From: Arthrobacter sp. FW306-2-2C-D06B
GTDB lineage: Bacteria; Actinomycetota; Actinomycetes; Actinomycetales; Micrococcaceae
Length of the DNA: 64,000 nucleotides
NCBI RefSeq assembly: GCF_021789175.1
Contig: NZ_CP084560.1
Span: forward strand, 2,294,001-2,358,000
Direction of reading: 5' to 3'
Part shown: positions 23,081 through 33,314 of the stretch, piece by piece
Layout of the letters: each line of letters opens with the position of its first letter
Numbering within the stretch: position 1 is the first letter of the stretch
Position numbers and translations under genes: made by a program
Notes under the pieces: model-generated
What the model was told of the DNA's origin: nothing
Database searches by the model: none
Seen by the model: the letters and a program-made list of their open reading frames with translations, nothing else

Positions 23081-23398
23081 TCAGCCCGGTATTGGCGCCG
23101 CTGCGACCACCGGGTGGTCCCGGCCGACGTTCCCCAGCACCGATGCTCCTTGTGGGGATCCGAGTTCCTCGAAGAACTCGACGTTGGCCCGGACATAATC
23201 TGCCCACTCATCCGGGACGTCGTCCGAGTAGTAGATCGCCTCGACCGGGCACACGGGATCGCAGGCGCCGCAGTCCACACATTCTGAGGGGTGGATGTAG
23301 AGCGAGCGTTCGCCCTCGTAGATGCAGTCCACCGGGCATTCGTCGATGCAGGCTTTGTCCTTGACGTCCACGCAGGGCTGCGCGATCACGTAAGTCAT
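23081..23398 (-). CDS. fdxA: Ferredoxin FdxA-type (3Fe-4S/4Fe-4S)
   Basis: 105-residue electron carrier of the seven-iron ferredoxin type. MTYVIAQPCVDVKDKACIDE and CPVDCIYEGERSLYIHP supply the first cluster ligands, and CVDCGACDPVCPVEA the second. The acidic C-terminal region DVPDEWADYVRANVEFFEEL is usual for actinobacterial FdxA. It begins 6 bp after the aldehyde dehydrogenase gene and is probably the last gene of that operon. Its presence suggests that an oxidation in the pathway may feed electrons to it, or that it is simply a housekeeping ferredoxin at this site. Confidence 0.93.
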   Translation of the reverse strand: MTYVIAQPCVDVKDKACIDECPVDCIYEGERSLYIHPSECVDCGACDPVCPVEAIYYSDDVPDEWADYVRANVEFFEELGSPQGASVLGNVGRDHPVVAAAPIPG

Positions 23399-23404
23399 GA
23401 CGCG

Positions 23405-24880
23405 CTACACACCGGTGTAAACGGTCTTGCCCCAGGTGAAGAAGTCCAGTGCGGACTTGCCCTGCTCGCGGAAGGTGTTCGTGGAGGAGTCCTTCACGCC
23501 ACCGAACGGCACGTTCAAGTCCAGGCCAGCCGTGGGGCGGTTGACCTTGATCACGCCTGCCTGCGCCCGCGCGGCGAAGTCCGTGGCGAGGGCCAGGGAG
23601 TCGGTGCAGATGCCTGCGGTGAGGCCGTACCGGGAGTCGTTGATCGCGGCGAGTCCGGCCTCGTAATCGGGGACCTCCAGGACCGCGACCACCGGACCGA
23701 AGATTTCCTCCGTCACGGCAGCGTCGTCACGGGGAATGTCGGTGAGCACTGCGGCCGGGAAGAGCAGCGCGCCGGAGGGGTCGCCGTCGTACTCTCCGTG
23801 GAGGAGGGTCGCTCCGCGTTCGACGGCGGTGCGCACCGCGGCCTGGTCCTGTTCGAACTGCTGGCTGCTCACCACAGCGCCCATCTTGGCGCCGTCGAGC
23901 CCGTCACCGGCGGTGTAGCCCGCGGCCTCTACAACAAGGGCTTCGAGGAACGCGTCCCGGACGCCCGGCGTGACGTAGACGCGCGACGTTGCAGTGCACG
24001 CCTGGCCCGTGAGTCCGAACGCGCCGGCTGCGACTACCGCGGCGGCCTTCCGCGGATCGGCGTCGTCGAGCACCAGGACGCCGTTCTTGCCGCCCATTTC
24101 GAGCTGGACGCGGGCGCGGCGGGCATTCAGGATTTCCTGGAGTCCGAGCCCCACTTTGGTGGATCCGGTGAAGGACAGCCCTGCGATGCGGGGATCGCGT
24201 GCCAAAGCGTCTCCGACTACGCGGCCCTTGCCGTGGATGACGTTGAATACTCCGGCGGGCAGCCCGGCGTCCTGCAGGGCGCGGGCAAGGTGCGTCGCCG
24301 AGAGCGGGGTGAGTTCTGCAGGCTTGATGACCACGGCGTTGCCGCTAATGAGGGCGGGGGCGGCCTTCCATGCCGGGATCGCGATGGGGAAGTTCCAAGG
24401 GGTGATGAGCCCGACGACGCCGAGCGGCTCGCGCCGGGTGGTGATCGTGGTGTCCGGGAGGCCACTGGGAAGCACTTCGCCGGTGGCGGCCCAGCCGAGG
24501 GAGCCGAAGAAGCGCAGCACGTCCGAGGCGCGCTTGACCTCTCCCTTGGCTTCAGTGAGGGTTTTGCCTTCCTCGCGGACGAGGTCCTCGGCGATCGCGC
24601 TTTGGCGCTCAAGGAGCAGGTTGCCTGCGGCCATGAGGATGGCGCCGCGGGCGGGGGCGGGCAACGCTGCCCACGCCGGCTGGGCGGCGGCAGCGGCTGT
24701 GATGGCCGCGTCGACGTCGTCGGCGGTGCCTCGCGGGGAGAGGGCGGCGAGTTCGTCCGGGCGGGCCGGGTTGATTCGCTGGATTTCGGGCTCTCCGGTC
24801 CATTCGCCGTTGATCAGGTGCTGCGCTGCGGCAACCTCTTTGCGGGCGGACGTTGCGGATTCGGTGGCGGTGGAAGTCAT
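23405..24880 (-). CDS. Aldehyde dehydrogenase of the unknown catabolic operon
   Basis: 491-residue NAD(P)-dependent aldehyde dehydrogenase: LITPWNFPIAIPAWKAAPAL, FTGSTKVGLGLQ, QLEMGGKNGVLVLDDAD with the general-base Glu, LTGQACTATSRVYV with the nucleophilic Cys, and VPFGGVKDSS. The sequence style is like the alpha-ketoglutaric semialdehyde dehydrogenase group used in sugar acid and hydroxyproline breakdown, but that is not proof of substrate. ATG 24880 follows AAAGGA. It lies 62 bp after the SDR gene and 6 bp before the ferredoxin gene. Confidence 0.9.
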   Translation of the reverse strand: MTSTATESATSARKEVAAAQHLINGEWTGEPEIQRINPARPDELAALSPRGTADDVDAAITAAAAAQPAWAALPAPARGAILMAAGNLLLERQSAIAEDLVREEGKTLTEAKGEVKRASDVLRFFGSLGWAATGEVLPSGLPDTTITTRREPLGVVGLITPWNFPIAIPAWKAAPALISGNAVVIKPAELTPLSATHLARALQDAGLPAGVFNVIHGKGRVVGDALARDPRIAGLSFTGSTKVGLGLQEILNARRARVQLEMGGKNGVLVLDDADPRKAAAVVAAGAFGLTGQACTATSRVYVTPGVRDAFLEALVVEAAGYTAGDGLDGAKMGAVVSSQQFEQDQAAVRTAVERGATLLHGEYDGDPSGALLFPAAVLTDIPRDDAAVTEEIFGPVVAVLEVPDYEAGLAAINDSRYGLTAGICTDSLALATDFAARAQAGVIKVNRPTAGLDLNVPFGGVKDSSTNTFREQGKSALDFFTWGKTVYTGV

Positions 24881-24942
24881 GGTAATCCTTTGGCCTAGCG
24901 GTTGGGATGGGGCATGAGTGCTGTCCGGGAGGAGAGCGGGGC

Positions 24943-25728
24943 CTAGAGGCTCCGGATCAAGCCTCCGTCGCAGCGAAGCGCGACGCCGGTGATGTAGGAT
25001 GCGGGGGCGCTGCAGAGGAACGCTCCGGCGGCGCCGAACTCCTGCGGTTCGCCGTAGCGTCGGGCAGGGATGGTCTTGCGCGATTCGAGTTGGATTTCCT
25101 CTGGGGTGGTGCCGCGGCGTTTGGCCGCCGCCCGGTCCAGTTCGGCAACGCGATCGGTGGCGATACGTCCGGGCAAGATCATGTTGACCGTGACGGCGTC
25201 GAGGGCCACTTCCGCGGCAAGGGTCTTGAGGTAACCGGCCAACGCTGCACGGCCCGTGTTGGAGACGGCAAGGTTGGGCAGGGGTGCCACGACGCCGCTG
25301 GATCCGATGGCCAGGATCCGTCCCCAGCGCCGCTCCCGCATCCCCGGAAGGATCTTCGAGACAAGGGCGTGGTGCGGCTTCACGAGCAACTCGAACGCAG
25401 CGGCGATGTCGTCGGCGCCAAGGCTCGCTGCCGCCCCGGGCTTGGGACCTGGGCCGTTGAGGACGAGGATGTCGATAGGGCCGAGCAGTTCCACGGCGCG
25501 TTCGACGGCGGCGGTCACTCCGTCCGGGGTGCTCAGGTCCGCTTCGACCGCCACGGCGCTGTGGCCGTCAGCCTGCAGTTCCGCCGCGATCTTCTCGGCC
25601 AGCTCGCCGCGGCGGCCGGTGATGGCAACACGGACGCCTTCGGCCGCGAGGCCGCGGGCGACGGCCAGTCCCAGCCCGCCTGTGGAGGCGGCGACGAAGG
25701 CGGTTTTTCCACTGATTCCGAAGTCCAT
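24943..25728 (-). CDS. SDR-family protein with altered catalytic residues
   Basis: 261-residue Rossmann-fold protein. The cofactor site is near normal (AFVAASTGGLGLAVARGLA; ITGRRGE; EADLSTPDGV), and the active-site serine region is AIGSSGVVAPLP. The usual Tyr-x-x-x-Lys is not seen; the aligned place reads LAVSNTGRAALAGY, with Ser/Asn for Tyr and Arg for Lys. A subset of SDR proteins of this kind is known and their chemistry is unsettled. Its ATG overlaps the upstream stop (TGATG), so it is translationally coupled to the DapA-type lyase gene and should belong to the same pathway. Confidence 0.87.
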   Translation of the reverse strand: MDFGISGKTAFVAASTGGLGLAVARGLAAEGVRVAITGRRGELAEKIAAELQADGHSAVAVEADLSTPDGVTAAVERAVELLGPIDILVLNGPGPKPGAAASLGADDIAAAFELLVKPHHALVSKILPGMRERRWGRILAIGSSGVVAPLPNLAVSNTGRAALAGYLKTLAAEVALDAVTVNMILPGRIATDRVAELDRAAAKRRGTTPEEIQLESRKTIPARRYGEPQEFGAAGAFLCSAPASYITGVALRCDGGLIRSL

Positions 25729-26660
25729 CAGAGCCTTCCTGCTGTGTGGGCGGTGAGGGTAAGTGAAAGATCCAAAGCGCGGGCTGCTTCAGCCAGATGC
25801 GTCAGCATTCCGTTCCGGAGGACCTCCGGGAAGGGAGCCGCGGGCGGGCGGACACCGGAATCCTTGATGAGGCCCCGCTCACGGAAACACTCTTTCCGGA
25901 CCGCCAGGGCGATCCGTGCCTGCTGCTCGAAGTTGATGAGCGGCAGGTAGGGGAGCAGCGCGTCCCGGGCGGCGTCGTAGCCGCCCGATTGCCAGGCGCG
26001 GACGCAGGCCACGAGGGCTTCCGGGTAGGAGAACCCCGTCATGGCGCCGGCTGCGCCGGCCACCAGTTCATCCAGCAGCCCCTGGCCGCCCAGCCCGCCG
26101 AACACGGAGACCTCGACGGCGGCCGCCAGTTGGGCGATGGCCACACTGGTGGGCGGGGCCTCGGCCTTGACTGCGATAACGAACTTGCACGCCTGGACCA
26201 CGTAAATGAGCGCTTCCGTGCTGATGCTGACACCGCTGGCGACCGGGTAGTCCTGCAGAACGACCTTGGCCCCGGTGGACTGATGGATGGCGTTCAGGTG
26301 CGCGATGACCACCTCGGGACGGGCCGAATTGGCCTGCACCATAACGGCGGCGAGCCGGTCTCCGGCCACGGCCTGGGCAGCCCGGACTTCTTCGACGGCC
26401 GTGCCCGTGAAGAGCGAGGTCACCCCCACAACAAGGGGCAACCGGGTCTCTTCGACCACCACCTCCAGCGCCAGGCTGCGCTCCGCCGCGGTCAGGGCGG
26501 CGGCCTCGCCGAAGACACCCAGGACAGTCAGGCCCGTGGCGCCGATGGATTCATAGTGCTCTACCAACCGGGCCAGGCTGTCGGTGTCCAGATCGAGGGT
26601 GCTGCCCTGGAATGGCGTGGCGACGACGCCCCACACTCCGGGTGCTAGTGCTTCCCGCAT
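25728..26660 (-). CDS. DapA/N-acetylneuraminate lyase family aldolase or dehydratase
   Basis: 310-residue TIM-barrel protein of the dihydrodipicolinate synthase superfamily. The Schiff-base lysine is Lys165 in FVIAVKAEAPP and the proton-relay tyrosine Tyr138 in LQDYPVASG; the carboxylate-binding loop reads GVFGE (residues 48-52) where family members have GTTGE or similar. Such enzymes form or break bonds next to pyruvate or a keto acid. I chose ATG 26660 because AAGGA stands 7 nt before it; a frame-open ATG at 26717 lacks a ribosome site. It lies 57 bp after the crotonase and overlaps the SDR start. Substrate unknown. Confidence 0.85.
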   Translation of the reverse strand: MREALAPGVWGVVATPFQGSTLDLDTDSLARLVEHYESIGATGLTVLGVFGEAAALTAAERSLALEVVVEETRLPLVVGVTSLFTGTAVEEVRAAQAVAGDRLAAVMVQANSARPEVVIAHLNAIHQSTGAKVVLQDYPVASGVSISTEALIYVVQACKFVIAVKAEAPPTSVAIAQLAAAVEVSVFGGLGGQGLLDELVAGAAGAMTGFSYPEALVACVRAWQSGGYDAARDALLPYLPLINFEQQARIALAVRKECFRERGLIKDSGVRPPAAPFPEVLRNGMLTHLAEAARALDLSLTLTAHTAGRL

Positions 26661-26717
26661 TGGATTGTCCTTCCGTTCGTGCTGAAGTTCGGTGTCTTGC
26701 ATCTGTTCGTGCTGCAT

Positions 26718-27530
26718 TCAGCGGCCCGGCCACACTGGCGGGCGCTTCTCCTGGAAAGCGCGAACGCCTTCGGCGGAGTCTTCGCTGTCGAGGGCGGCCA
26801 TGAGGGCCGGCAGCCTGAGGCCGCGGGCTTCCGCGGCGCTCAAGTGGCTGGTCCGGCTGACCATTTGCTTGACGGCCCGGACGGAACTGGGCGCGCAGGC
26901 GAGGATCTGGTCCAGCCAGCGCTGCACCGCGGCGTCGAGTTCCTCCGCGGGAACCACTTCGTTGACCAGGCCCATCGACTGCATCTCCGTAGCCTCGGCC
27001 TTCCGGCCGGTGAGGAGCATGCCCATCGCTTGCGTGTAGGGGACGCGGCGCACCAGCTGGTGGATGCCGCCGTCGAGCGCCAGGCGCCCGACCCGCGGTT
27101 CGGTGAGGCCGAAGCGGGCCGTGTCCGCGGCAACGACGATGTCGGCTCCGAGCACGATCTCCATGCCGCCGCCAAGCGCATAGCCGTTCACCCTGGCAAT
27201 GACCGGAATGTCCAGGCTCGTGCGCAGGCTCAGTCCGCCGAAACCGTTGGGGTCAAGCTCCGCCCAGTACTGCAGGCCGGTCTTGTCCACGGCGGAGGCG
27301 GACATGTCCGCCCCGACGCAGAACGCCCGCGTGCCGGCCCCGGTGATGACGACGGCCCGCACGTCAGGATCGGTCTCGACCTGGTTCCAGATGTCATTGA
27401 GCCGGGCCTGTGCAGTCCCGTCCACCGCGTTGAGCACGTGCTGGCGGTCGATCACCACGGTGGCCACGTGGTTTTCAATGGTCAGCGTAACCTCGTCAAC
27501 GATCTTCTTCTCTTCCATCGACACAGTCAC
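26718..27530 (-). CDS. Enoyl-CoA hydratase/isomerase (crotonase) family protein
   Basis: 270-residue crotonase-fold enzyme acting on a CoA thioester. The oxyanion-hole segments are AFCVGADMSA and YALGGGMEIVLGADI. The two catalytic glutamates of hydratases match Glu124 (GGGMEI) and Glu144 (FGLTEPRVG), so hydratase or lyase activity is likely. The GTG start overlaps the CoA-transferase stop by four bases with GGGAG upstream, so the two are coupled. Together they suggest: activate an acid as CoA ester, then hydrate or isomerise it. The pairing resembles CaiB/CaiD of carnitine metabolism, without other genes of that pathway. Confidence 0.9.
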   Translation of the reverse strand: MTVSMEEKKIVDEVTLTIENHVATVVIDRQHVLNAVDGTAQARLNDIWNQVETDPDVRAVVITGAGTRAFCVGADMSASAVDKTGLQYWAELDPNGFGGLSLRTSLDIPVIARVNGYALGGGMEIVLGADIVVAADTARFGLTEPRVGRLALDGGIHQLVRRVPYTQAMGMLLTGRKAEATEMQSMGLVNEVVPAEELDAAVQRWLDQILACAPSSVRAVKQMVSRTSHLSAAEARGLRLPALMAALDSEDSAEGVRAFQEKRPPVWPGR

Positions 27531-28786
27531 CGGAGGACTCCCAACTTCTGCAGGCGTTCGATGGTTTCGGCGTCGAAGCCGTTCTCCAGCAGGACCTCCA
27601 CGTTGTGCTCGCCGAGACGCGGCGCCACGCGCCGGATGGAAGGCGGGGTAGCAGACAATCGAATGGGGGCGTTGAGCATCTTCACGGTGCCGACGCCCGG
27701 GTGCTCGGCCTCGACGATCATGCCGTTGGCCTCGGTCTGTGCATCGGCCAACGCCTGTTCAAGGGTATGGACCGGCGCGTTGAGCAGGCCTTGGCTTTCC
27801 AGCTGGTTGGTCCAGTACTCGGTGGTGTTCGTGGCGATGCGCTCCCGGAAGATCGCCTGCAGGGCCGGCTTGTGCTTGAACTGCTGCTCCAGGGTGGCAA
27901 ACTCCGGCCGCTGGGTAAGGTCTTCGTCCAGTCCCAGCGCTTCGGAAATCCGCGCGAGGGGGTCGGGGGTGAAACCGCCTACCATGCAGACGGCTCCGTC
28001 GGTGGTCTCAAAGACGCCGCTCAGCGGCATGGCGCCCCAATTGACTTCATAGCCGCGGTTGAGCTGCATGCATGCCTCCTGCATCTGCAAGTGCAGCATG
28101 GAGTCGTACATGGTCACCTCGACCTTTTGCCCGACGCCGGACGTCTCCCGGGTGCGCAATGCCAGCAGGATGCCCTGCATGAGGTGCATGCCCGTGATGT
28201 AGTCGCAGAGCGTCGTGGGGTAGATGGCCGGCTTCATGTCGTCCGACTCGCGCCGCCACATCACGCCTGAGTACGCCTGCGCGATCGCATCCTGGCCGCC
28301 CTTGTGGGAGTAGGGGCCCACCGGGCCGAAGCCCGTGCCGGAGGCCCAGATGATGCCCGGGTTCGCGGCCTTGAGTTCCTCGTAGCCGAAGCCCATCCGT
28401 TCCATGACGCCGGAGCGGAAGTTGCTGACGACGACGTCGGCGTCGGCCATGACCCGGCGCAGGACGGCCTTGCCCTCGTCGGTGCGCGTGTCCACGGAAA
28501 CGCTGCGCTTGTTCCGGTTGATGGACAGGAAGATCGGGTTGTCCTGGCCGTCCTTGTCCGGGAACGAGTTGCGGGAGATGTCGCCGGCGCCCGGGCGTTC
28601 CACCTTGATGATGTCCGCGCCGTAGTCGCCCAGGAGCTGGGTGCAGGACGGTCCCATGAACACCTGGGTGAAGTCCACGATCTTGATGCCGTCGAGGGGG
28701 AGCGGGATCCCGTTGGGCTTGGCAGCGGCGGCGGGCGCCGCCGTCGTGGTTTCCTCAAACTCATCGAGAAGGGTCTCGGTGCTCAT
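27527..28786 (-). CDS. CoA-transferase family III (CaiB/BaiF)
   Basis: 419-residue class III CoA-transferase moving CoA from one carboxylic acid to another. Features: GIKIVDFTQVFMGPSCTQLL near the start, GADIIKVERPGAGD, SNFRSGVMERMGFGYEEL, and GPYSHKGGQDAIAQAYSG, where Asp166 corresponds to the catalytic aspartate. An N-terminal Ala/Pro-rich extension of about 30 residues precedes the domain. The ATG overlaps the FAD oxidoreductase stop (ATGA). Neighbours suggest that it activates an acid produced by the oxidoreductase. Substrate unknown. Confidence 0.92.
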   Translation of the reverse strand: MSTETLLDEFEETTTAAPAAAAKPNGIPLPLDGIKIVDFTQVFMGPSCTQLLGDYGADIIKVERPGAGDISRNSFPDKDGQDNPIFLSINRNKRSVSVDTRTDEGKAVLRRVMADADVVVSNFRSGVMERMGFGYEELKAANPGIIWASGTGFGPVGPYSHKGGQDAIAQAYSGVMWRRESDDMKPAIYPTTLCDYITGMHLMQGILLALRTRETSGVGQKVEVTMYDSMLHLQMQEACMQLNRGYEVNWGAMPLSGVFETTDGAVCMVGGFTPDPLARISEALGLDEDLTQRPEFATLEQQFKHKPALQAIFRERIATNTTEYWTNQLESQGLLNAPVHTLEQALADAQTEANGMIVEAEHPGVGTVKMLNAPIRLSATPPSIRRVAPRLGEHNVEVLLENGFDAETIERLQKLGVLR

Positions 28787-30165
28787 GCCCCCACCGCCGC
28801 TTCGCTGTCGACGGTAGCGTTCGACGACGGGACGTCGCCCGGGTCCGCACCGTGCCGGCGCATGCCCTGCTGGATGTCCAGCGCGGAAACCTCGCGGACG
28901 AGGGTGCCGTTTTCGACCGCCAATGCGGCGGCGACGCCGACTGCCTGGCCCATGGCCATGCAGGGCGGGATTTCGCGGGACATCTTCTGTGCTTCCGGGG
29001 TGGCCGAGTAGTGGCGCCCGGCGACGAGCAGTTGGTCTACTTCCTTGGGAAGCAGCGAGCGGTACGGGTAGTAGTAATCGCGGCCGCGGGCCACGGTGTC
29101 AGCGAAGTGGCGGCGGGAGGTGACGTCGTCCTTCGTCATGACGTATTCGCCCTCAAGCAGGCGGGTTTGCCGTACCCCCATCTGGGAGGCGACGTCGAGC
29201 ATGTAGCAGTTCTCAAAGCCCGGCAGGTGGGCGCGGACGTACTCAACGGCCTCGGTGATCCGGTCCCGTGCGGCGAACTCGGCGGCGGTCATGTCCGCCG
29301 GGTCCACGCCGTCGTATCCGGTCATGTGGGGAGCGTTGCACCAGACGACGCCGTCGATCGGTGTCTTGAGCCACCACAGTTCCCAGGCGCCGCCGAGGAG
29401 GCGCTTGATGGTGCGGTTGATGGCGCGGGCTTCCTTTGGGTTGGCCTGCTCGAAAGCTTCTGCGGCGGCGGTGTCTACGTTGCCCAGGCGGAAAACAAGC
29501 GTGGTGAGGTAGCTGTCCTTGATGTGGCTGGCGCCGGCACGGGAGGCGACGTCGATGTCTCCGGTGGTGTCGATGACGATGTCCGCCATGAAGGCCTGCG
29601 GGCCGGACTTGGTCTCGCAAATGACGCCCTTGATGACGCCGTTGTCCACGATCGGGCGGGAGAACCACGAGTGCAGGCGGAGGTTGACGCCGGCTTCGCG
29701 GACGAGGTCGTTGGAGACCCGCTTCCAGCCGTCGGGGTCGAAGGCTGCGGCGTAGCAGATCGGCTTGGGGTTGGTGTGGGAGTGGAAGTCGAAGGTGCCG
29801 TAGCGGCCCCACTTGTTCCAGAGTTCCTCGGAGGTTTTGCGGTCATCGGCAGGCGGAACGATGGCCAGGCCGAGCTTCTGCAGCCGTTCGACGTACTCCG
29901 ATACGATGCCGGTGACCGTGATTTCCTGGCCGTTGATCATGTCGTCGAGCACCAGGACCATGCCACCGGAAGCGAGTCCGCCGAGCGAGGAGTAGCGCTC
30001 GAGGAGCGTGACGGATGCGCCGGAACGTGCTGCGGTGACCGCGGCGGCCACGCCGGCGGGCCCACCGCCGACCACGAGGACAGCGGAGCGGGAGATGACG
30101 GGCGCGGTGAGATCCGCCGTCGTCGTACTGAGTTCCAGTGACGATGTGCTGGCAAAGGAGTTCAT
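28783..30165 (-). CDS. FAD-dependent oxidoreductase (PF12831 type), first gene of unknown catabolic operon
   Basis: 460-residue flavoprotein. The dinucleotide-binding motif is AVLVVGGGPAGVAAAVTAAR, followed by SLGGLASGGMVLVLDD, VIDTTGDIDVASRAGA, and a C-terminal LLVAGRHYSATPEAQK with MAMGQAVGVAAALA for flavin binding. This layout fits the FAD_oxidored group whose substrates are mostly unknown. ATG 30165 has AAGGA at 9 nt. It leads seven close-packed genes and is preceded by a 228-bp gap and the regulator gene on the same strand. Function could be dehydrogenation of an imported acid or amino acid (inference). Confidence 0.88.
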   Translation of the reverse strand: MNSFASTSSLELSTTTADLTAPVISRSAVLVVGGGPAGVAAAVTAARSGASVTLLERYSSLGGLASGGMVLVLDDMINGQEITVTGIVSEYVERLQKLGLAIVPPADDRKTSEELWNKWGRYGTFDFHSHTNPKPICYAAAFDPDGWKRVSNDLVREAGVNLRLHSWFSRPIVDNGVIKGVICETKSGPQAFMADIVIDTTGDIDVASRAGASHIKDSYLTTLVFRLGNVDTAAAEAFEQANPKEARAINRTIKRLLGGAWELWWLKTPIDGVVWCNAPHMTGYDGVDPADMTAAEFAARDRITEAVEYVRAHLPGFENCYMLDVASQMGVRQTRLLEGEYVMTKDDVTSRRHFADTVARGRDYYYPYRSLLPKEVDQLLVAGRHYSATPEAQKMSREIPPCMAMGQAVGVAAALAVENGTLVREVSALDIQQGMRRHGADPGDVPSSNATVDSEAAVGA

Positions 30166-30393
30166 GGAGGAGGATCCTTACTTCCCGGCGGGCATGCCGT
30201 TGGAACGGTTGCCGGGGTGTAGACGAGGTGCCCGGGAGGAGTTCGCGGCGATGCACGCAGCGGACCAGGCCCGGGCGGAGGGCATGACGAGTAGCGGTCC
30301 CGCGGGACCTGGACACGGAAAGAGAGATGTTTGCGCACGGACGTCCAAGGGTCCGTGCGTGTGTGGGAGCAGGCGGCGGCTAGCGCCGGGTGA

Positions 30394-31002
30394 TCACCAC
30401 ACGTGTGGGGCGTTGACCCATATTGCTACGCATACCTCTTCGTAGCTGTTTTTGTACCAGTGAGGCGTATCCGAGGAGAAAGTGATCGAATCGCCCGCCT
30501 CGAGCGTGTAGCACTGGCCGTCCAGGAAGATGTCTTTCCTTCCCGAGAGGATGATGCCGAATTCCTCGCCGCTGTGGCGGAAAGGAGTGGCACTGGTGTC
30601 GTGGCCTGGCGGGCTCACGATCCATTGGGCCTCCAACGCGCCGTTGAGGTCCGGGGTCAGGAGCTCGTAGACTGCCTCTCCCACGGACTTCTTGGTGACG
30701 CCTTTGAGGTTTCGCCGTTCGGCCTTGCGGACAACGGGCGATCTGGTTTCTTCCTGGCCGATGAAGAATTTCCCGACGGGAATGTCCAGGCCGTGAGCCA
30801 GCTGTGCCAAGGTAGTGAACGACGGATTGGCCAGCCCACGTTCGATCTGGCTGACGATCGCCGGGCTGAGACCCGTGATTTCCGAGAGTTTGGACAGGGT
30901 CATCCCCTTGTCCTTGCGCATCGTCCGGACCTTGTTGCCGACAGTTGCCAGAAGCGCGCTCGTGCCGGCCGGTGAGGATGCCGTGATGATCTCGTTGGTC
31001 AT
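30394..31002 (-). CDS. XRE-family regulator with C-terminal cupin domain
   Basis: 202-residue transcription factor. The helix-turn-helix covers about residues 20-75: KVRTMRKDKGMTLSKLSEIT, GLSPAIVSQIERGLANPSF, with LAHGLDIPVGKFF after it. A cupin ligand domain follows, with HSGEEFGIILSGRKDIFLDG and FSSDTPHWYKNSYEE. Regulators of this type sense small metabolites and control adjacent catabolic genes. It is preceded by a clear -35/-10 pair. It lies upstream of the FAD oxidoreductase operon and divergent from the transporter. A degenerate second copy lies 240 bp away on the other strand. Confidence 0.93.
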   Translation of the reverse strand: MTNEIITASSPAGTSALLATVGNKVRTMRKDKGMTLSKLSEITGLSPAIVSQIERGLANPSFTTLAQLAHGLDIPVGKFFIGQEETRSPVVRKAERRNLKGVTKKSVGEAVYELLTPDLNGALEAQWIVSPPGHDTSATPFRHSGEEFGIILSGRKDIFLDGQCYTLEAGDSITFSSDTPHWYKNSYEEVCVAIWVNAPHVW

Positions 31003-31036
31003 GATCCAGCTTTCTCTCGGTGAGCTGACTCACATA

Positions 31037-31064
31037 ACTATAGTGAAAAATTTTAGCGAATCAA
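31037..31064 (-). promoter_or_regulatory. Promoter of the XRE-cupin regulator with shared downstream motif
   Basis: On the minus strand TTGATT (-35) and TATAGT (-10) are 16 bp apart, and the -10 is followed by TATGTGAGTC. The same arrangement, TTGACC, 16 bp, TATAGT, then TAAGTGAGTC, is found in the opposite orientation at 31166-31193. The common GTGAGTC segment is a candidate operator for the regulator. Confidence 0.6.
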
Positions 31065-31165
31065 TGGTTTGGTGAATTTTTCTTCTCCACTGGACCGAGT
31101 GGCACGCTCGCGGGTGCGGACTCTTCAGTACTGGCGGCGCCGCGAGGGCTATTTATCAAAAAGCA

Positions 31166-31193
31166 TTGACCTGGTGAATATCTTCAATATAGT
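31166..31193 (+). promoter_or_regulatory. Duplicated promoter pointing to the transporter gene
   Basis: TTGACC, a 16-bp spacer and TATAGT, followed by TAAGTGAGTC, copy the regulator promoter on the other strand. It lies ahead of the degenerate regulator copy and about 360 bp upstream of the transporter start, with no obvious terminator between, so it could drive the transporter. Confidence 0.5.
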
Positions 31194-31239
31194 TAAGTGA
31201 GTCGCATCACGTTGGGACGTTTGTAACACGATCAGAGAC

Positions 31240-31431
31240 GTGGGCGCTTCAGCCTTCTGGCGGAAGGCCCAGCCCAGCCCCGCGTCCACCCTCGTGTTTC
31301 CCATATTGATCCTGCGGCATCCAAGCAAGCCATCCACGTTCCCCTTACCGGGATGGATGTCCCCGTTTGCTTCAAAGCGCTACGAAGAGGCACGCGTAGC
31401 TATCTGGGCTAACTCACTTCCCATGAGGTGA
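31240..31431 (+). pseudogene. Degenerate, internally deleted copy of the XRE-cupin regulator
   Basis: The last codons (31377-31431) read KRYEEARVAIWANSLPMR then TGA, against NSYEEVCVAIWVNAPHVW at the end of the intact regulator, and the bases agree closely (GCTACGAAGAGG, then GCGTAGC in both). A near-identical promoter lies upstream. Almost the whole DNA-binding and cupin region is missing, so this cannot be a working regulator. The orientation is opposite to the intact gene, so the pair forms an inverted duplication. Confidence 0.65.
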
Positions 31432-31552
31432 GCTGGTTCGGCGCCGCCGAACCAAGCCAAAATGATAGTTTCGATCACCGTCCATACCCCCTGGATGTCA
31501 ACGGTGGTCCGTACCCTCACGCACCGCGAAGGTGCGGAGGAAGGAAAGAATC

Positions 31553-32857
31553 ATGACTGACACTGTCGTCAAGAATGGCCCGGAGAGCGCCCGGAAATCC
31601 CGGCTCTCTCCGGAAATCCGCCGTGGGCTGCTGGGCCTCGGACTCGGGAACACCCTTGAGTGGTACGACTGGATGGTCTTCGGACTCCTGTCGGCCTTCA
31701 TCGGGCCAAAGTTCTTCCCCTCGCAGGATCCAACCGCCGCAACGCTTAACGCACTGGCGGTCTTCGCCGTCGGTTTCGCGTTCCGTCCGCTGGGCGGCGT
31801 CCTGCTCGGTACTTTCGCCGACAGAATCGGCCGTCGAAAAGTGATGCTCTGGTCCATCATGATGATGGCAGTCACCACGCTGATCATCGCCCTGTGCCCG
31901 ACCTACCAGCAGATCGGCGGCGCTGCCGGCGTCATCCTCCTGGTCTGCCGCATCGTGCAGGGCATCTCCACCGGTGTTGAAGCTCCGCTTTCCACTGCAC
32001 ACGCCGTCGAACTGGTTCCCGTGGGACGCGAAGGATTCGTCGCAGGCATCATCTCCTTCTTCGTGAACTCGGGCATTCTCCTCGCCTCGCTGGTCAGCTA
32101 CCTGTGCAGCCTGATGCTGAGCGGGGCCGTCATGGCCGACTGGGGTTGGCGTGTTCCGTTCATCGTGGGCGCGATCTTCGGCTTCGTCGTGGTCTACCTT
32201 CGCCGGACCCTTCCGGAAACCATGCGGCCCGAGGAGCTTGCGGAGAACTCCTCGAAAGCTGTCTGGGGCGGGGTGCGCAAGCATTGGCTGAGCGTGCTGG
32301 CCATTACCTTCGTCGTTGGAGCGGCGCAAGCCTACAACTACGCCTGGAACACGGGACTGCCCACCGCGGCCCGCAGCGGCTTCAAGGAAGATGCGACTGC
32401 CGTCTTCGCCCTCACCACCATTCTTGGCGTGGTGCTGGTTGTCGGTAGCCTGGTGGTCGGCAAATTCGCCGATGGCAAGTCGATTTCCAAATGGTTCCTG
32501 ATCACCCGCGCACTGTCCATTCCTTCGGTCTTCCTCATGCTCATGTACGTTCGTCCGGGCATCGGCGGATTCGCCGCGGTCCTCCTCGGCGGTTCGGTTG
32601 TCCTGGTCCTGAACATGACCCTGTACAACGTCGTCACGAGTTCCCTGATGCCCAAGTCCTGCCGGGGCGCCGGAACTTCCCTCGGTTACGGAATCGGCGT
32701 CGCCATCTTCGGCGGCACGGCTTCCTACCTCCTGGTCTGGCTCCAGTCCATGAATGCATCGTGGATCTTCCCGGTTTACGTCGCCGTCCTGTCCGTGTTG
32801 AGCATTGTGTTCTACGTACTCGCCCGGCGGAAGAATGGCATCTTCATTGGAAGCTAG
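31553..32857 (+). CDS. MFS transporter, metabolite:H+ symporter (MHS) type
   Basis: 434-residue importer with about twelve membrane segments. LGNTLEWYDWMVFGLLSAFI in the first helix, FRPLGGVLLGTFADRIGRRK (motif A) and CRIVQGISTGVEAPLSTAHA mark the MHS group that includes ShiA, KgtP and ProP, which take up organic acids, betaines or similar compounds with protons. GGAGGAAGG precedes ATG 31553. It is divergent from the XRE-cupin regulator and the seven-gene catabolic operon, so it most likely brings in the substrate of that pathway (inference). Confidence 0.92.
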   Translation: MTDTVVKNGPESARKSRLSPEIRRGLLGLGLGNTLEWYDWMVFGLLSAFIGPKFFPSQDPTAATLNALAVFAVGFAFRPLGGVLLGTFADRIGRRKVMLWSIMMMAVTTLIIALCPTYQQIGGAAGVILLVCRIVQGISTGVEAPLSTAHAVELVPVGREGFVAGIISFFVNSGILLASLVSYLCSLMLSGAVMADWGWRVPFIVGAIFGFVVVYLRRTLPETMRPEELAENSSKAVWGGVRKHWLSVLAITFVVGAAQAYNYAWNTGLPTAARSGFKEDATAVFALTTILGVVLVVGSLVVGKFADGKSISKWFLITRALSIPSVFLMLMYVRPGIGGFAAVLLGGSVVLVLNMTLYNVVTSSLMPKSCRGAGTSLGYGIGVAIFGGTASYLLVWLQSMNASWIFPVYVAVLSVLSIVFYVLARRKNGIFIGS

Positions 32858-32861
32858 GAAT

Positions 32862-33314
32862 GTGATCTCGTTCGACCTCAGCCAGTCCGATGTGGAGCTC
32901 TACACCGCGGCGCGTCAACTGCTCCTCACCGCCCACCACGGCGAAAACCATCGGGTGGCCGCGGCCATGCGGGGCGAGTCGGGAGCGATCTACCTGGGCC
33001 TTCACATCGGCTCGAAACGAATCAACGTGTGTGCGGAATCCAGCGCCCTCGCCAATGCCCGCATTGCCCAGGAAGCCTCCATCCGGTCATCCGTCGCAGT
33101 GAGCATGGACGAATACGGCGAACCCCAGGTCACAAATCCTTGCGGCGTTTGCCGGGAGCTGCTGCGGAACTATGGGGCCGAGGCAACTGTCCTGGTTGAT
33201 GCCGGGGGAGAGGTTGGAAGCGTCGGCTTGGAGGAACTCCTGCCGTATCCCTGGATGCGGGCCACCGAGACCGAATGGACCACCCAACCGCCCGAAGCCA
33301 TGAAGTCGTACTGA
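32862..33314 (+). CDS. Cytidine deaminase-like zinc protein
   Basis: 150-residue protein of the cytidine deaminase fold. The zinc site is intact: VCAES (Cys57, catalytic Glu59) and NPCGVCREL (Cys94, Cys97). It is longer than many Cdd proteins at the C-terminus (EELLPYPWMRATETEW) and may act on another amino-pyrimidine or similar ring, as blasticidin-S deaminase does. GTG 32862 comes 5 bp after the transporter stop, with GGAAG at 8 nt; ATG 32835 is in frame but poorly spaced. Co-transcription with the transporter is likely, and a strong hairpin terminator follows. Confidence 0.82.
   Translation: MISFDLSQSDVELYTAARQLLLTAHHGENHRVAAAMRGESGAIYLGLHIGSKRINVCAESSALANARIAQEASIRSSVAVSMDEYGEPQVTNPCGVCRELLRNYGAEATVLVDAGGEVGSVGLEELLPYPWMRATETEWTTQPPEAMKSY

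Follow-up and report, generated by a model that had tools for sequence, protein, structure and literature searches.

In the carnitine coenzyme A (CoA) pathway, a class III CoA-transferase (CaiB) acts ahead of a crotonase (CaiD) that adds water to an enoyl-CoA. A like pairing is found in a gene cluster of Arthrobacter sp. FW306-2-2C-D06B, located within a 64,000-nucleotide stretch (contig NZ_CP084560.1, positions 2,294,001 to 2,358,000; hereafter the window) of a 4.56 Mb, single-contig genome. Compared to the carnitine pathway, this module additionally contains a flavin adenine dinucleotide (FAD) enzyme, a ferredoxin, a DapA-fold protein, an aldehyde dehydrogenase (ALDH), and a deaminase. Assignment as an L-carnitine pathway was rejected, as the window's proteins reach 117.3 of 413 bits for CaiB and 171.5 of 500 bits for CaiD. 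With both curated cut-offs missed, the likeness to carnitine metabolism drawn in an earlier reading of this DNA (the original prediction) is not borne out. We tentatively propose, with somewhat less than even confidence, that the cluster forms a co-regulated module that imports, deaminates, and degrades an amino-substituted pyrimidine-type compound, perhaps the vitamin B1 pyrimidine, via a CoA-bound intermediate.

Further described systems resemble parts of the module. The pentose and hydroxyproline routes via alpha-ketoglutarate semialdehyde (KGSA) share with it a DapA-fold enzyme and an ALDH of the nearest families, but the module proteins score below the curated cut-offs. To our knowledge, these routes have no place for a CoA-transferase or a crotonase. 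The ThiY/ThiXYZ system for thiamin-pyrimidine uptake (3ix1, 4nmy) is nearest to the binding protein of an ATP-binding cassette (ABC) importer linked to the module in relatives. In contrast to ThiXYZ, that importer adjoins catabolic-type enzymes, and the window cluster has a metabolite:H+ symporter of the MHS family in its place. The Rut and reductive pyrimidine pathways have the same presumed pyrimidine-type ring as their target, and rut genes adjoin the module at one locus (L121); however, no Rut family occurs among the listed matches of the ten window-cluster proteins, and the module is CoA-dependent. Lastly, PuuR-like XRE-cupin regulators have the same HTH_3 and Cupin_2 domain order as the window regulator, which differs from them in its score (72.4 bits, cut-off 211) and in its own predicted operator.

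Full-text literature searches, covering open-licence papers mostly through titles and abstracts, yielded no description of the gene set. In the same literature, locus tags of Rhizobium leguminosarum led only to a fused sensor/regulator gene outside the module. Each protein family is known; the combination was absent from what these sources showed, and a new ring-opening chemistry is possible but unproven.

Conservation and catalytic residues

Genomes were scanned with the FAD protein. The 80 best of at least 530 relatives were retained, so that near kin are over-represented; six plasmid loci were added. The actinobacterial set comprises 79 loci (77 of the best 80 plus L034 and L035), more than half of them from Arthrobacter and near kin and some ending at contig ends, and the proteobacterial set comprises 25. 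The complete order FAD oxidoreductase, CoA-transferase, crotonase, DapA, short-chain dehydrogenase/reductase (SDR), ALDH is present in 66 of the 79 actinobacterial loci, more than chance would give. The hosts in the scan range from Arthrobacter and Rhodococcus to Streptomyces, Pseudonocardia, Amycolatopsis, and Nocardia. The gene order is kept far beyond the Micrococcaceae. The first three genes occur in all 79 loci and are collinear in 78, accompanied by the regulator (78), DapA (75), MHS (75), SDR (74), and ALDH (69), while the ferredoxin (42) and the cytidine deaminase (CDA)-like protein (19) are rarer.

Proteobacterial loci likewise carry the FAD, CoA-transferase, and crotonase genes throughout (25/25), the ferredoxin in 22, and, in many cases, LysR regulators. 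Where present, their DapA and ALDH are often not closely related to those of the window: L037 and L039 carry a classical, KDSS-type DapA (21-24% identical to the window's), and the DapA of L121, L122, L152, and L154 is a distant relative. The FAD–CoA-transferase–crotonase set is thus the constant core and the ferredoxin is common, while the later steps look exchangeable. Pairwise distances between module proteins, taken without correction for species phylogeny, correlate at 0.78-0.97 (exceptions are ferredoxin-MHS, 0.53, and ferredoxin-XRE, 0.70), as expected from joint inheritance.

Despite its conserved order, the distribution of the module is patchy. At E below 1e-120, the window's family has it in 10 genomes out of 197; the order to which G299 belongs (the Rhizobiales genome that holds L119) has it in 13 of 397, and the family of G699, a list that includes G299, in 43 of 297. 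In the class of the gammaproteobacterial genome G297 (L115), the only carrier among 369 genomes is G297 itself. This conserved and widespread gene set, for which our literature searches gave no described function, represents an unassigned metabolic capacity of soil, rhizosphere, and marine bacteria. Two additions were seen in individual loci. L081, L082, L084, and L103 have a further CoA-transferase paralog, about 50-52% identical, near the regulator. Near the module ferredoxin of L170 (4332-5129; relatives in L169 and L171) lies a gene for a beta-keto acid cleavage enzyme, its PF05853 family checked in L170.

The families named in the original prediction are supported by profile scores for all ten proteins, and catalytic residues were checked in alignments of module relatives. 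The FAD oxidoreductase matches PF12831 (289.9 bits, cut-off 27) and has a Fix/EtfC- and geranylgeranyl-reductase-like fold; sequence and fold searches of the PDB with this protein returned the broad superfamily only. In the CoA-transferase (PF02515, 363 bits, cut-off 23.3), Asp195, the catalytic aspartate of class III, is present in 85/85 sequences. The crotonase (PF00378, 190 bits) retains Glu124 and Glu144, both catalytic glutamates of enoyl-CoA hydratases, again in 85/85. The ALDH (PF00171, 474.8 bits) keeps Cys295 and Glu261 in 69/69, and its nearest curated models are 2,5-dioxovalerate and KGSA dehydrogenase, both below cut-off; as a KGSA dehydrogenase it was rejected (NF052305, 506 of 750; NF042993, 448 of 770). 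The SDR-fold protein (PF13561, 131.9 bits) lacks the YxxxK motif of classical SDR oxidoreductases, as had been noticed earlier, and carries Ser156 and Arg160 instead in all 73 aligned sequences, the window copy among them. The ferredoxin scores 181.6 bits with the FdxA_Actino model NF045480 (cut-off 125).

The DapA-type protein (PF00701, 63.2 bits) was rejected as a 4-hydroxy-tetrahydrodipicolinate synthase (TIGR00674, 68.8 bits, cut-off 206.15). Tyr157, Lys184, Glu186, and Glu71 are present in all 76 aligned sequences. Its nearest solved relatives are 3dz1 and the L-2-keto-3-deoxyarabonate dehydratases, with which it shares the Schiff-base lysine in a K-x-E arrangement. Because the protein falls in this K-x-E group, a dehydratase or hydro-lyase role (Lys184 and Glu186, 76/76) is at least as likely as the retro-aldol cleavage to pyruvate envisaged in the original prediction, which is not supported.

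Gene layout and predicted operators

The coordinates of the open reading frames (ORFs) agree with the earlier description of seven packed minus-strand genes with three overlaps of 1-4 bases, preceded by an XRE-cupin regulator and accompanied by a divergent MHS/CDA pair (Table 1). The FAD/CoA-transferase and CoA-transferase/crotonase genes overlap by 4 bases each and DapA/SDR by 1; crotonase and DapA abut. Gaps of 62 bases separate SDR from ALDH, 6 ALDH from ferredoxin, and 228 the regulator from the FAD gene. Given the overlapping or abutting junctions and the short gaps of 62 and 6 bases, the arrangement fits a single transcript for the seven enzyme genes. The CDA gene probably starts at ATG 32835, inside the 3' end of the MHS gene, because the listed protein P0121, 99% identical, has 159 amino acids.

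Table 1. Positions of the module features within the window
Feature	Position	Strand	Family or remark
FdxA-type ferredoxin	23081..23398	-	NF045480
Aldehyde dehydrogenase (ALDH)	23405..24880	-	PF00171
SDR-fold protein without catalytic Tyr/Lys (Ser156/Arg160)	24943..25728	-	PF13561
DapA-fold Schiff-base lyase/dehydratase, K-x-E group	25728..26717	-	PF00701
Crotonase, enoyl-CoA hydratase type	26718..27530	-	PF00378
Class III CoA-transferase	27527..28786	-	PF02515
FAD oxidoreductase	28783..30165	-	PF12831; first gene of enzyme operon
XRE-cupin transcriptional regulator	30394..31002	-	HTH_3 + Cupin_2
Predicted operator	31020..31042	-	overlaps -10 of regulator promoter; promoter-like hexamers 31064-31037
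Predicted operator, near-identical	31188..31210	+	overlaps -10 of MHS-CDA promoter; promoter-like hexamers 31166-31193
Leader element of MHS-CDA transcript	31377..31480	+	conserved; predicted three-way junction
MHS-family metabolite:H+ symporter	31532..32857	+	MFS_1; probable ATG 31553
CDA/blasticidin-S-deaminase-like zinc deaminase	32835..33314	+	PF00383

The regulator (HTH_3, 48.6 bits; Cupin_2, 58.8 bits) is separated from the MHS gene by 529 bp that contain two divergent promoter-like sites, near-identical across the -10 and the presumed start. The predicted operator next to the regulator reads TATAGTTATGTGAGTCAGCTCAC, and the one next to MHS reads TATAGTTAAGTGAGTCGCATCAC. Exact TATAGTTNNGTGAGTC occurs at two sites genome-wide, both in this gap; with up to two mismatches, 5 sites compare with 5 for the reversed control, so that the exact matches alone are informative. 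Upstream of the regulator, the pattern TTGA(C/T)-N8-16-TTCANTA(T/G/A) is present in 55 of 78 loci (reversed, 0; shuffles, mean 0.015) and, outside the Arthrobacter group, in 14 of 35; it was set after inspection of the sequences, and the controls speak for non-randomness, not for binding. Together, the repeated predicted operator and the pattern upstream of the regulator support one regulon covering importer, deaminase, and enzymes. Binding of the compound or a product in its cupin domain would lift the repression that the XRE-cupin protein is presumed to exert on both promoters.

Proposed pathway and competing explanations

Importers and deaminases may point to the substrate. The window's MHS protein matches MFS_1 (94.7 bits) and TIGR00883 (272 bits, below the cut-off of 443). 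Loci without MHS contain an NMT1/THI5-like ABC importer, whose binding protein is found in 24 of the 25 proteobacterial loci; examples lie at L136:9210-10241 and L119:7217-8248. Eight of ten relatives' proteins scanned match PF09084 (cut-off 20.5) with 113-176 bits, and the remaining ones are an ATPase and a TetR protein. The structures nearest to a model of this binding protein are of the ThiY type (3ix1, 4nmy). Several kinds of deaminase, among them CDA, TRZ/ATZ, and ComEB-like proteins, adjoin the core across loci. The CDA-like protein (PF00383, 28.4 bits, cut-off 25) carries the zinc and proton-shuttle motif C-x-E...C-x-x-C, with Cys76, Glu78, Cys113, and Cys116 (numbered in the ORF from 32805) in 18/18 sequences. 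It was rejected as a cytidine deaminase proper (TIGR01354, 40.9 bits, cut-off 113.65).

We postulate the following route from the genes and their order, the intact catalytic residues, the repeated operator, the NMT1/THI5-like importer, and the varied deaminases; the chemistry is read from families and residues, and the order of the steps is our assignment. After uptake by MHS, or by the ABC system in other lineages, the zinc deaminase would take off the ring amino group, and the FAD enzyme, with the ferredoxin as partner, would carry out a two-electron redox step. The CoA-transferase would then activate a carboxylate, allowing the crotonase to hydrate the activated C=C; a pyrimidine-5-carboxyl-CoA would be attacked at C6, opening the ring without an oxygenase. 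Removal of water from, or cleavage of, a 2-oxo intermediate would fall to the DapA-fold enzyme with help from the non-canonical SDR protein, and oxidation of the semialdehyde by the ALDH would yield an acid that enters central metabolism. We regard as unlikely, though worth stating, the specific version in which the B1 pyrimidine or a similar aminopyrimidine is deaminated and carried as a ring-carboxyl-CoA thioester, the crotonase hydrates C5=C6, and the ring opens spontaneously.

Several observations weigh against a pyrimidine-degrading module. The modelled binding protein is only 22% identical to ThiY. The window has MHS and lacks the ABC importer, but both occur in L080 and L081, so that replacement is not strict. 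In 27 of 66 loci (24 on recount) the core has no deaminase nearby, a count for which the deaminase queries came from these same loci without a random-window control, and the CDA is absent from 60 of the 79 actinobacterial loci. At the Rfam threshold, neither a thiamin pyrophosphate (TPP) riboswitch nor any other was found in the window, L037, L121, or L081. Promoter-like hexamers by themselves occur at chance level (2 versus a mean of 1.2 in shuffles). The ALDH and DapA relatives equally indicate an ending through KGSA, to which the FAA-hydrolase-fold and ALDH proteins of L192 point as well. Finally, the nucleoside-hydrolase neighbours of some loci share one arrangement and perhaps reflect one event, and we do not count them as independent evidence.

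A possible but rather doubtful alternative is that a C5-C6 acid, sugar-like or unsaturated and either free of nitrogen or simply aminated, is degraded to 2-oxoglutarate. Here, the CoA-transferase would activate the acid, the crotonase hydrate it, the DapA-fold dehydratase produce KGSA, and the ALDH oxidize this to 2-oxoglutarate. The K-x-E shared with 3dz1 and the L-2-keto-3-deoxyarabonate dehydratases, the nearest ALDH models, and the FAA-hydrolase-fold protein and two ALDH genes of the CDA-bearing L192 all agree with it, and MHS transporters bring in organic acids. However, the ALDH falls far under both cut-offs, some proteobacteria have a classical, different DapA, and the deaminases and the thiamin-type binding protein would be left unexplained. 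A nitrogen-containing substrate, which the original prediction had allowed for, is one that we judge probable. That it is a different amino-N-heterocycle, be it a modified nucleobase, a pterin, or something like an s-triazine, reached in some hosts through nucleoside uptake and hydrolysis, is improbable. TRZ/ATZ deaminases occur in the loci, nucleoside-type ABC, nucleoside hydrolase (IUNH), and TRZ/ATZ genes adjoin L139, L159, and L161, rut genes adjoin L121, and a nucleoside-type ABC accompanies the CDA in L191/L192. The protein AtzT, which has relatives with names that denote nucleoside or purine binding, holds guanine and 2-hydroxyatrazine (PMC6834077). Yet each of these neighbour links is rare: IUNH lies within 8 kb in 3 of 42 genomes (42 of the 43 FAD-positive ones, G1292 left out), compared with about 0.4 expected from 126 copies, probably through a single event, and the modelled ABC binding protein appears to favour thiamin-type ligands.

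The Fix/EtfC- and geranylgeranyl-reductase-like fold, the co-encoded ferredoxin, and the marine or plant-associated hosts among the carriers would suit a pyridine-type acid (homarine or nicotinate-like) whose ring is reduced by the FAD/ferredoxin pair. Such an acid has no exocyclic amine calling for a deaminase, and the matches listed include no matching homarine or 6-hydroxynicotinate reductase literature, which makes it very unlikely. Salvage, rather than breakdown, of a vitamin precursor would likewise account for a binding protein modelled as thiamin-type, but we know of no role for CoA-transferase, crotonase, DapA, or ALDH in known thiamin salvage, and with no TPP riboswitch in the four loci searched we consider it scarcely likely at all. 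Overall, the reading as a coherent module of catabolic type that includes a regulator and a transporter of its own is supported, as are the conserved order and the shared predicted operators; of the earlier interpretation, a probable nitrogenous substrate is kept alongside these, and the retro-aldol step to pyruvate and the carnitine likeness are given up.

If the ring-opening version is true, it would add a pyrimidine-breaking chemistry beside the reductive and Rut routes in soil, plant-associated, and marine bacteria, and carriers could consume a vitamin precursor needed by their neighbours. Consumption of the B1 pyrimidine would offer a genetic handle on the loss of a precursor common to many microbes, and would make a possibly new ring opening approachable using six purified enzymes. 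The predicted operator and the importers provide markers for finding carriers.

The MHS-CDA leader and neighbouring genes in relatives

In 16 of the 79 actinobacterial loci the MHS gene is inverted as in the window, and all 16 carry the CDA. The window and these same 16 loci share a highly conserved 104-nt element in the MHS leader. Three copies were folded: that of the window is predicted to form a three-way junction (z -3.24), with z values of -2.04 for L068 and -0.75 for L045. The 5' half is similar to the final codons at the 3' end of the regulator gene, like a decayed duplicate, and the stop codon in the regulator-like frame is lost in 4 of 17 copies. Over 36 nt, mean pairwise identity is 98.2% for the leader copy versus 95.0% for the regulator coding copy. 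There is little covariation: double changes affect 2 pairs, a number matched by 51/500 shuffles; standard pairs amount to 95.3% (reached by 4/500), with 9/500 for the covariation score and 377/500 for pair types. The case for the element rests on sequence conservation and the invariant P1 pairing, itself without covariation, and a regulatory RNA is a suggestion only. Against Rfam, nothing reached the gathering threshold, and two chance-level matches appeared only at E up to 5. Weaker matches of the covariance model in other loci fall mostly on coding sequence at the regulator gene's 3' end, as judged by position and one alignment (L076), and were rejected as more RNA copies; 18 of 47 matching genomes exceed 90 bits and are of the genuine leader type. 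The simplest history would be that MHS flipped from an order regulator-MHS-FAD together with an upstream piece that was later kept as leader.

Neighbouring genes were also recorded in relatives. On a plasmid of Rhizobium sp. ACO-34A (L121:4527-8706), pyrimidine utilisation (rut) genes, annotated as proteins A-D, malonic semialdehyde reductase, and FMN reductase, are directly divergent from the module. In L139 (19-5976), L159, and L161, the last of which ends at its contig end, a nucleoside-type ABC, a nucleoside hydrolase, and a second TRZ/ATZ amidohydrolase adjoin it. Relatives of the CDA lie immediately 3' of nucleoside-type ABC genes in L191 (6696-14872) and L192 (5126-13215), perhaps as a second, related pathway. 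Beyond the CDA, L192 encodes an FAA-hydrolase-fold protein and two ALDHs, presumably of the AraD1 and KGSA dehydrogenase types, and an ALDH is found in L191 too (tblastn).

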